Source: Candidatus Kuenenia hertensis
GTDB lineage: Bacteria; Planctomycetota; Brocadiia; Brocadiales; Brocadiaceae
Length of the DNA: 64,000 nt
Direction of reading: 5' to 3'
NCBI GenBank assembly: GCA_021646465.1
Contig: SOET01000014.1
Coordinates: 1 to 64,000, forward strand
How positions within the stretch are numbered: position 1 is the first letter of the stretch; each line of letters opens with the position of its first letter. The notes under the pieces are model-generated. The model was not told the origin of the DNA. It searched no databases and saw only the letters and a list, made by a program, of their open reading frames with translations. This document shows positions 6,872-21,981 of this stretch, piece by piece. The position numbers and the translations under genes were made by a program.

Positions 6872-6956
6872 GTTTCTGTCTCCCAAAAGCTGCAAACAGC
6901 GGGTAAAATAACGATAATAGTGTAGTATAGATAAAAGAGTTGCATGTAATAAAAAA

Positions 6957-6984
6957 AATCCCACCTTTATAAGGGTGGGATTTT
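6957..6984 (-). terminator. Intrinsic terminator after the multihaem cytochrome gene
   Basis: ATCCCACC and GGTGGGAT form an 8-bp stem flanked by A-runs on one side and T-runs on the other, so it can act in both directions. On the minus strand it lies about 45 bp past the cytochrome stop codon and before the aconitase start. Confidence 0.8.
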
Positions 6985-7027
6985 TTAAAAATTTTTTCAA
7001 TACATTACAATGGCCAAACGAAAATTA

Positions 7028-8239
7028 TTAATGTCCTTCTGGTACTTTGACTAATCCATGACCTCCGAAAAGCAGCACATCTACTTCCTCAGGAATTGAT
7101 ATTTTGGTAAAATTATGCGATTTATTTGGTCCATGACAAGTCTGACATTTTACAAGATCGTTAGTGATCAAACCCTGACTACGCATCTTTTGCACTTTCC
7201 CAAAGATTGAATTTTCGCTTGTGTCAAGCTGAGAGTGCTCAGGCCCGCCAATGTGGCATTTTTCGCAGGCATCATATGCCTGTGCCTCTGCCTTTGAAAA
7301 CTTATGGCTTTCATGGCAGGCATTACAACTGCCACCAACCCTGTCTTCATACTGCAATCCCAACCTATGGCAGTCCCTGCAACCTTCCATACTGAGTTGT
7401 CTTGTTGTAATTACATCATACGTGCTGCCAAATGCCACAGGGCGTCCTTGCAGGTGTGAACTTTCACGAAAATCAATGAATTGTTCCTGGTGACATTCTC
7501 CGCATCTGCTTGCCGATACATGGCCGTGTTTTTCTGCTATATGCCCATGATCATCACCATGGCAGCCGATACAGGTTACCCCTTTTGCAGCATGAGGGCT
7601 GCCCGTCCACTGCTTTACAACTTCAGGAGTTGCTATCTTATGGCACGCAAAACACTCTGTTTCTTTGTATTTGCCATATGGTTTAACCTTTTTTTCAGCG
7701 TAAATTTCAAAAAGGTCTCCCGGCATATGGGGATGAACTACCCCTAAATGGCAATCGGTACACAATAAATTTTCGAGCGTCCTTCCATCCTTGCTGTGTT
7801 TGTTGCTCATTGAAACAAACTGAATATGATTTTTATCTTTTGTATGGCCTTCTGCATGGCAACGCTCACAATTACCATTTATTATTTCTATACTGTCTTC
7901 GGCAACTTCAATAAGTGTTCCGTCAGAAAAAGCTTGAAAAGAATGCATCAAAGAGTCATGAGTTCCGTCACTCAGCTTTGCGTGTGCATATCCTTTCAAC
8001 CCCGGACCAACGTGACATGCGTGGCAATGCTCAACGTGTTCGTTATTATGTTTAGAGGCCATGAACGATTCGTAATGAATATCCATTTCGTGACAGCTTG
8101 CACAAAACTCGTTTGTTTCCGAATAATGGTATACTTTATTTACCGTAACGAAAAAAATGACAAGAACAATTATGGTGAAGAAGCCTACCAGTTTTTTTCT
8201 TCGCTTAATAAACTCTAATAACTGCTTCAACCGCTCCAT
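7028..8239 (-). CDS. Membrane-anchored 11-haem cytochrome c: NapC/NirT-like head with HAO-like tail
   Basis: 403 residues with a strong AGGAGGT site. One N-terminal membrane helix (about 17-34) anchors it, with the body outside the cytoplasmic side. Eleven CXXCH sites start at residues 46, 72, 124, 160, 196, 223, 246, 287, 305, 325 and 365. The first four are spaced as in the NapC/NirT quinol dehydrogenase family. The last seven resemble the C-terminal half of octahaem hydroxylamine oxidoreductase, including CNACHESHKFS and CEKCHIGGPEHSQ. Inferred role: electron transfer between the quinone pool and periplasmic or anammoxosomal redox enzymes. Confidence 0.88.
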   Translation of the reverse strand: MERLKQLLEFIKRRKKLVGFFTIIVLVIFFVTVNKVYHYSETNEFCASCHEMDIHYESFMASKHNNEHVEHCHACHVGPGLKGYAHAKLSDGTHDSLMHSFQAFSDGTLIEVAEDSIEIINGNCERCHAEGHTKDKNHIQFVSMSNKHSKDGRTLENLLCTDCHLGVVHPHMPGDLFEIYAEKKVKPYGKYKETECFACHKIATPEVVKQWTGSPHAAKGVTCIGCHGDDHGHIAEKHGHVSASRCGECHQEQFIDFRESSHLQGRPVAFGSTYDVITTRQLSMEGCRDCHRLGLQYEDRVGGSCNACHESHKFSKAEAQAYDACEKCHIGGPEHSQLDTSENSIFGKVQKMRSQGLITNDLVKCQTCHGPNKSHNFTKISIPEEVDVLLFGGHGLVKVPEGH

Positions 8240-20463: not shown

Positions 20464-21981
20464 ATGAATATTAATAAAAAAAGGATAATTGTTCTATTTT
20501 CAATAAATGTATTCATAATTGTCCATATACTGCTGTGGTATAAGTATGGATTTCAGAAGGTTGGAACGTTTAGTCTGAATGGTATCGTCAACCTTTTTGG
20601 TTTTGGTTTACTAAATTCCGCTGCTGTTTTTTTTATTATCATTGTTTTATTAACGGTATTTTTTGGAAGAGTTTTTTGTGGATGGGGATGCCACTTTGCT
20701 TTTTTTCAGGAACTTGCTTTAAAAGTGCTTAATAAATGTGGAATATATCCTTCCATTATCCATTCCAGAGCAAATATCATACAGTACGTATTTCTCCTGA
20801 AAACAATCACTGCCATTTTTGAATTTTGGTATATTTATGGTCTCCCTCAATTTCACATTAATATCGGTGATACACAGGTTATGACGTCAGACCTTCCCCG
20901 AAGCCCTGTTATCATTGCATTATTTATTTTATTTGACGCGTTTCTCTTTATTTATCTTATGGGATCAAGGGCATTCTGCAGATATGTGTGTCCATGGGCT
21001 CCTATGCTTGCAATATTTGAGAATATTAGTTTTTGGCGGATAAGAAAAATCAGTGAATGCACCGGCTGTATGAGCTGCACAAGAAGTTGTACAATGGGAA
21101 TAGCAGTACACCAGGAGATAGCCCGACATGGTGCGGTTGTAAATGCAAATTGTATACGATGCCTTTCCTGTAAGAATGCCTGTCAAAACGGAACGTTAAG
21201 TTATAAATGGGGCGTCAATGTTTTATCTATGACTCGCAAATTCAGGTGGTTGATTCCGGAAGTGAGTAATTATAATCTCTATACTGAATTGGTTATCATT
21301 TTTTGTGGAATAATCGCAGCATTCTATACGCAAAAGTATTTTGGCAGCTTCCAAACGTTCCTGGGTGCGGCATGGGGTTTGTGTTTTGCCGTGATAATAT
21401 TCAAAATACTTGAAAGGAAGAGTGTTAAAATATCAGAGCCCGTTCTGCGAAAAAGGAAACTTCTGGCTTTAAGTTTAATAATGTTGTCAACCCTTGCATG
21501 GTGCCGGGGAACGTTAGTGCCTCCTGAAACCCGCCTGTTAATGAGGGGCAACAGATTTATAGATATAATGGAATATGATAAGGCAATTCTGACCTATACA
21601 AATGCATTGAATGAATATCCGTCAAACAAACAAATTCGTTCTGCGCTTGCATTAGCTTATAAAAACAATGGTAACTATGAAAAAGCAATAATTGAGTATA
21701 AGGCGCTTATTGCGGAAGATCCTGAAAATGCAGTTTTGCGTAATAATCTTGGAACTGTTTATTATCGAAAAGGAGATTATGATGTAGCAATTGAAGAATA
21801 TAAAAGGGCTATTCTGTTTGATAAAAGTCTAACAGCTGCTTATGGAAATATCGGTTTAATATTGCTGGAAAAGGGAAATGTTGAAGAGGCTGTTTATTAT
21901 TTGAAAAATGTATTTACAACAGAGGAGGAAATGTATCAATATCTTTTAACTTATTATGGGTCTAAACAAGGACAGATATAG
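20464..21981 (+). CDS. NapH/YccM-like polyferredoxin membrane protein fused to TPRs
   Basis: 505 residues. Five or so membrane segments carry the paired Cys motifs FCGWGCH and FCRYVCPW of the NapH/CcoG group. Two cytoplasmic [4Fe-4S] sites follow (CTGCMSCTRSC and CIRCLSCKNAC). After two more helices the last about 150 residues form three TPRs (ALALAYKNNGNYEKAI, LGTVYYRKGDYDVAIEEY). NapH-type proteins move electrons across the membrane. The TPR tail is unusual and may dock a partner. Nine bases separate it from the zinc-ribbon gene. Confidence 0.85.
   Translation: MNINKKRIIVLFSINVFIIVHILLWYKYGFQKVGTFSLNGIVNLFGFGLLNSAAVFFIIIVLLTVFFGRVFCGWGCHFAFFQELALKVLNKCGIYPSIIHSRANIIQYVFLLKTITAIFEFWYIYGLPQFHINIGDTQVMTSDLPRSPVIIALFILFDAFLFIYLMGSRAFCRYVCPWAPMLAIFENISFWRIRKISECTGCMSCTRSCTMGIAVHQEIARHGAVVNANCIRCLSCKNACQNGTLSYKWGVNVLSMTRKFRWLIPEVSNYNLYTELVIIFCGIIAAFYTQKYFGSFQTFLGAAWGLCFAVIIFKILERKSVKISEPVLRKRKLLALSLIMLSTLAWCRGTLVPPETRLLMRGNRFIDIMEYDKAILTYTNALNEYPSNKQIRSALALAYKNNGNYEKAIIEYKALIAEDPENAVLRNNLGTVYYRKGDYDVAIEEYKRAILFDKSLTAAYGNIGLILLEKGNVEEAVYYLKNVFTTEEEMYQYLLTYYGSKQGQI

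Follow-up and report, generated by a model that had tools for sequence, protein, structure and literature searches.

An 11-haem NapC–HAO-like fusion cytochrome of anammox bacteria as a candidate conduit between hydrazine and the quinone pool

Results

A tetrahaem head and a heptahaem tail encoded in one reading frame

The DNA analysed here, hereafter the window, is a 64,000-nucleotide stretch of Candidatus Kuenenia hertensis (assembly GCA_021646465.1, contig SOET01000014.1, positions 1 to 64,000 of the forward strand), and we focus on one of its genes, which encodes an 11-haem protein joining a NapC/NrfH-type cytochrome to a tail of the HAO/HDH superfamily. The gene is an open reading frame (ORF) on the minus strand, as are all of its features given below (7028..8239, stop codon at 7028-7030), with an ATG start and a product of 403 amino acids. 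Its 11 CXXCH motifs lie at residues 46, 72, 124 and 160 of the head and at residues 196, 223, 246, 287, 305, 325 and 365 of the tail, in agreement with the 4 + 7 split described in an earlier reading of this DNA made from the sequence alone (the original prediction). All 11 motifs are kept in orthologues down to 42-56% identity, the lone variation being a CX3CH at haem 1 in one family, which excludes a chance occurrence of CXXCH. An artefact or a fusion of frames was ruled out, since 53 genomes carry the fusion in one frame or as fragments at contig ends. Just 3' of the gene lies an intrinsic terminator (6953..6986; the hairpin reads on both strands and was listed by the scan on the plus strand) of -17.7 kcal/mol and z -4.55, and the same hairpin was found in 51 of 56 orthologues. 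The conservation of such a strong terminator suggests that the fusion gene is probably its own transcription unit. Co-transcription with the aconitase gene, its constant downstream neighbour, is unlikely with this terminator between the two.

The head belongs to the NapC/NirT family

The head (residues 1-176; 7712..8239) starts with a membrane anchor, a helix at residues 15-40 (8120..8197) in the AlphaFold2 model that is also a hydrophobic stretch in the sequence. The NapC/NirT profile PF03264 matches residues 19-170, with four CXXCH motifs, at E=2.8e-15 and 56.9 bits (curated cut-off, 24.1), and a PDB sequence search matched residues 15-172 to NrfH of Desulfovibrio vulgaris (2j7a). The NCBIfam NrfH equivalog TIGR03153 gave 78.1 bits, below its cut-off of 134.2, and by profile the fusion protein is a member of the NapC/NirT family, not NrfH proper. 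The head haems are attached at CASCH (8090..8104), CHACH (8012..8026), CERCH (7856..7870) and CTDCH (7748..7762). The first of these motifs is followed by EM, of which M52 aligns with the haem-1 Met of NrfH, and a predicted quinone site from K88 to D95 (7955..7978) aligns with the NrfH Lys and Asp; all 47 aligned orthologues keep M52, K88 and D95. In the NrfH structure, the aligned Met serves haem 1, and the Lys and Asp serve the quinol site. The same 47 orthologues also retain H64, H99, H138 and H169, whose positions correspond to distal haem ligand sites of NapC-type cytochromes.

The N-terminal anchor, the four haems, the CXXCHXM motif and the quinol-site Lys and Asp are thus common to the fusion and to the tetrahaem quinol dehydrogenases of the NapC/NrfH/cM552 type (PF03264; NrfH 2J7A). 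Unlike them, the fusion has seven further haems, a sub-cut-off NrfH score, additional near-invariant His residues in the head (H55, H68, H73, H86 and H94) and, in one family, the CX3CH form of haem 1. This expanded motif at the quinone-proximal haem (e.g., CGKMCHEM) was seen in the orthologues L021, L022, L027, L031, L039 and L040, all of family f2.

The tail matches haems 1 to 7 of HAO and HDH

The rest of the chain (residues 177-403; 7031..7711) is a heptahaem tail of the HAO/HDH superfamily. In the PDB sequence search, HAO 4n4j matched residues 187-376 (1.6e-9) and HDH 6hif matched the same half of the protein. In the alignment, CXXCH motifs 5 to 11 fall successively on haems 1 to 7 of HAO and HDH; they are CFACH (7640..7654), CIGCH (7559..7573), CGECH (7490..7504), CRDCH at the position of the HAO catalytic haem (7367..7381), CNACH (7313..7327), CEKCH (7253..7267) and CQTCH (7133..7147). 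The chain stops about 30 residues past haem 7, before any haem 8 and without the helical C-terminus, so that the original count of one haem fewer than octahaem HAO was correct. The cross-link Tyr of HAO is located in the C-terminal helical region. As that region is missing, the Tyr that the original prediction proposed to look for has no place in this chain, and neither has a P460-type cross-link formed in the HAO manner.

The invariant His residues of the tail outside the CXXCH motifs (216, 231, 262, 312, 335 and 375) align with His positions of most HAO superfamily rows. At the position of the HAO Asp-His pair (E334-H335; 7235..7240), the His is invariant and the acidic residue varies, being E or D in 34 of 47 orthologues and otherwise S, V, P, I or A. 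The His of the SxHG motif, kept in 46 of 46 HAO-superfamily rows, corresponds to F346 in this protein (7202-7204) and to Phe in 25 of 47 orthologues (Brocadiaceae in the alignment), and one tail haem may accordingly be without its usual distal ligand. No invariant tail His beyond the HAO-aligned set was found that would cap haem 4, and an open coordination site on this haem is possible from the alignment.

The fusion scores 41.7 bits against the hydrazine dehydrogenase profile NF052343, whose cut-off is 900. In a tree of the tail with its octahaem relatives, the fusion proteins form a single clade with a support of 100, apart from HAO/HDH (99), the ONR-like set (99) and the octahaem group of Planctomycetota. 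An assignment of the tail as a true HAO or HDH was rejected given this separate clade and the missing haem 8 and C-terminus. The tail does not merit the name of an HAO enzyme, judging from its own clade and from the lack of conservation of the catalytic Asp of the Asp-His pair. Compared with the HAO/HDH octahaem family (PF13447; 4N4J, 6T5E, 6HIF and 1FGJ), then, the tail shares haems 1 to 7 and most conserved His residues but differs in all of these features.

Octahaem cytochromes of other Planctomycetota score highest among the tail's relatives (110-135 bits); paralogues in the window's own genome reach 56-102 bits. The former (L158-L175, about 380-750 amino acids) have a haem spacing nearly identical to that of the tail; unlike the fusion, they possess haem 8 and the C-terminal helical region and have no NapC head in the chain, nor was a NapC head found among the neighbouring ORFs in the loci read. 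A split counterpart of the fusion occurs in two other Planctomycetota genomes (G197 and G327), where a NapC gene adjoins an octahaem gene; there, in contrast to the fusion, the two are separate, and the octahaem protein, which is complete, falls within the ONR-like set. The window's genome has two close octahaem paralogues (L183:820-2490 and L184:841-2484) that also group with ONR-like octahaem cytochromes that adjoin NapC genes in other Planctomycetota.

The predicted fold agrees with both halves

A first AlphaFold2 run with 31 orthologues gave a poor model (pLDDT 58), and a second run with 106 sequences, taken from the window or from retrieved loci, reached a pLDDT of 79 and a pTM of 0.75. 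In the alignment of the second run, 13 NapC/NrfH rows were misaligned, so that the head model is based mainly on orthologues. Foldseek searches of this model against the PDB matched the tail to HAO of Brocadia fulgida, HDH of Kuenenia and HAO of Nitrosomonas (6t5e, 6hif and 1fgj) and the head to NrfH (TM-score of 0.64 by target length), with no unrelated fold scoring well. The tail TM-scores are low (0.3 by query length, with rmsd values of 6-9 Å), and the fold match consequently backs the superfamily and not the details. The unrelated fold that would have refuted the original prediction thus did not appear, and profile, PDB matches and fold together uphold its claim of a NapC/NrfH-type head and an HAO-superfamily tail in one membrane-anchored chain of an anammox lineage.

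The fusion is found throughout most of the anammox order

Of 59 Brocadiales genomes, 53 carry the fusion, either complete or as fragments at contig ends, and no full-length copy was detected outside Brocadiales in a draw of 392 Planctomycetota genomes. Beyond Planctomycetota, its absence rests on a pattern scan of named genomes, whose full-length hits came only from Brocadia, Jettenia, Loosdrechtia, Scalindua and anammox-type metagenome-assembled genomes, plus one 3.7-kb contig filed under Alphaproteobacteria (L098) that is probably misbinned. The viral contigs searched contained no copies. Among the six Brocadiales genomes without the fusion, three (G022, G008 and G056) also lack the neighbouring FGE orthologue, so that their sequence is probably missing at this place, and in a fourth (G009) the contig ends inside the FGE gene. 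The other two are genomes of Candidatus Anammoxibacter (family f5), from which the absence looks real. The f5 genomes instead carry unrelated 13-haem proteins of 580-637 amino acids whose head is of the NapC type and whose tail is different (L227:2450-4192, L228:2095-4008 and L229:2805-4604). One of them adjoins a 16-haem protein that has a membrane part at its C-terminus.

Within the fusion clade, the branches follow families f1 to f4, a pattern that points to one fusion event followed by vertical inheritance through most of the anammox order. The two constituent families are known; their architecture in this protein is new and order-wide. The window's genome encodes no NapC-family protein over the cut-off other than the fusion, and PF03264 likewise matches nothing else in G010 (complete, 20 contigs) or in seven f2 genomes. 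A separate NrfH, accompanied by NrfA, occurs in many other Brocadiaceae.

The gene lies near hydrazine genes in many genomes

In 20 genomes (13 of f1, 4 of f2 and 3 of f4), the fusion gene is located 4.06-7.8 kb from the HDH gene on the same strand. The full order, as read in Brocadia (L247), is hzsA, octahaem HAO, trpB, trpA, HDH, two TPR genes, a divergent FGE/TPR gene, a divergent c7 gene, the fusion and aconitase. The stretch from hzsA to the gene for the FGE-sulfatase domain protein, with the trp genes inside, forms a conserved hydrazine cluster (L247:59-12586 and L248-L260). Proximity to hzsA was observed in Brocadia, Jettenia and Kuenenia; in a complete Kuenenia genome (G001), hzsBCA and the fusion, downstream of it on the same strand, are separated by 8.2 kb that include mobile-element remains. 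Around the window's copy, the upstream neighbour is a different one and HDH is not nearby. The window's own assembly, an anammox genome, yielded no HDH above the family cut-off, which probably reflects an assembly gap from near-identical copies. In one Scalindua genome (G048), a different 11-haem membrane-anchored protein of 398 amino acids with NapC-like stretches, which does not cluster with the fusion, is encoded directly upstream of an HDH gene (L242:4692-5888).

The fusion probably corresponds to a Kuenenia protein that has been published merely as a "NapC/NirT family cytochrome c," KsCSTR_12840, which would give this protein 11 haems and an HAO/HDH-type tail. The gene numbering fits, as 14 locus numbers separate hzsA (KsCSTR_12690) from KsCSTR_12840, which is thus the 15th after it, and the ORF list of G001 gives 15 ORFs between hzsA and the fusion. 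Over the cut-off, G001 has one other PF03264 match (24.6 bits), located 60 kb away, and this is a five-haem protein of a different kind. KsCSTR_12840 has been reported to be relatively abundant and to be upregulated together with HZS and HDH; its upregulation was seen in incubations with Fe2O3 or MnO2.

Discussion

A candidate route for electrons from hydrazine to quinone

With a probability of roughly 0.4, we read the fusion as an 11-haem conduit, anchored in the membrane, for electrons of the anammox hydrazine pathway, in which the net flow would run from hydrazine, through HDH, to the tail, the head and finally quinone. The head would be located at the anammoxosome membrane, where it would exchange electrons with menaquinone, and the tail would project into the lumen and dock soluble cytochromes or HDH, acting as a haem wire or docking antenna and not as an enzyme. 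That the head would work as a quinone reductase is less certain, and the direction of flow would be the least certain part of the whole mechanism. Cytochrome cM552 is thought to act as a quinone reductase behind HAO in ammonia oxidisers. This analogy, the lack of an assigned quinone partner for HDH and the quinol-linked module already proposed for HZS are the reasons for which we favour flow from hydrazine to quinone.

The quinone partner of anammox HDH has been called "an as yet unidentified cytochrome c" (PMC3701875, 2013), and the electrons of hydrazine have been proposed to pass via soluble cytochromes to the membrane chain (PMC7438415, 2020). The fusion would be that cytochrome c. More specifically, and only tentatively, it could be the missing HDH:quinone oxidoreductase of anammox, with a truncated heptahaem domain of the HDH superfamily serving a NapC-type quinone reductase as haem wire or docking antenna, inherited since before Brocadiaceae, Scalindua and related lineages diverged. 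An HAO-family cytochrome with a NapC-family quinone partner is the common theme of the fusion, of the HURM of ammonia oxidisers (HAO, c554 and cM552) and of the reverse HURM of Nautilia (PMC3701875). Unlike in HURM, whose components are separate proteins, both are joined in one chain in the fusion, and its proposed partner is HDH, not HAO. Our literature search returned no description of the fusion and covered the subscription literature only in part, so that an earlier proposal for this protein is possible. How hydrazine passes its four low-potential electrons to the quinone pool bears on energy conservation in anammox, and the analysis points to a single gene whose anatomy, distribution and gene neighbourhood are as expected for this stated question.

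Several observations weigh against a hydrazine-to-quinone conduit. Proteins of the NapC family usually oxidise quinol, and nothing in the sequence fixes the direction of electron flow. The fusion stands outside the HDH operon, with the divergent FGE/c7 pair in between and a terminator of its own, and it lies away from HDH in G012 (one contig) and G010, which are complete or near-complete genomes. The presence of trpAB within the same conserved cluster means that gene order can be conserved by hitch-hiking, which weakens the argument from synteny. Both Anammoxibacter genomes have HDH without the fusion, and the link would thus have to be replaceable. Finally, the probable identity of KsCSTR_12840 with the fusion was deduced from gene order.

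Alternative roles for the fusion

The same conduit might run in reverse, with the fusion as a quinol dehydrogenase that passes electrons from menaquinol to lumenal reductases such as hydrazine synthase or an HAO-like nitrite reductase and with the tail as their docking site. The habitual quinol oxidation of NapC/NrfH proteins and the closeness of the gene to hzsA in three genera speak for this arrangement, and a NapC/NirT cytochrome has been suggested to deliver electrons to HZS (PMC10006275). It is HDH, however, that has no assigned membrane partner, and we consider the reversed conduit somewhat unlikely. The original designation of the protein as a quinol dehydrogenase is affected in the same way: it was right about the NapC-type head but presupposed a direction, and the gene context suggests entry of hydrazine electrons into quinone at least as strongly.

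A self-contained quinol-dependent enzyme, in effect NrfHA or a reverse HURM in one chain, would reduce nitrite, NO or hydroxylamine at an open haem-4 equivalent, using electrons supplied by the head. The tail retains haem 4 and the His of the Asp-His pair and offers no extra invariant His as an obvious cap, and the adjacent NapC and octahaem genes of G197 and G327 would be its split counterpart. Such an enzyme is nevertheless improbable in view of the variable acidic partner of the His, the absence of haem 8 and of the C-terminal helical region, which in HAO shapes the trimer, and a tail that falls outside the HAO, HDH and ONR-like groups. Less plausible again, and very unlikely in our estimate, is a general electron-export hub, periplasmic or outer, that would serve metal oxides or other acceptors and be linked to the hydrazine genes by hitch-hiking only. 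NapC-family hubs such as CymA do serve many partners, the response of KsCSTR_12840 to Fe2O3 or MnO2 fits such a role, and the presence of trpAB shows that the cluster includes unrelated genes. Yet retention in 53 of 59 Brocadiales genomes, including the small ones of f2, exceeds the expectation for an optional respiration, and the tail belongs to the HAO superfamily.

Elsewhere in the window, a 505-amino-acid ORF on the plus strand (20464-21981) resembles, as judged by eye, a polyferredoxin-type membrane protein with C-terminal TPR-like repeats.
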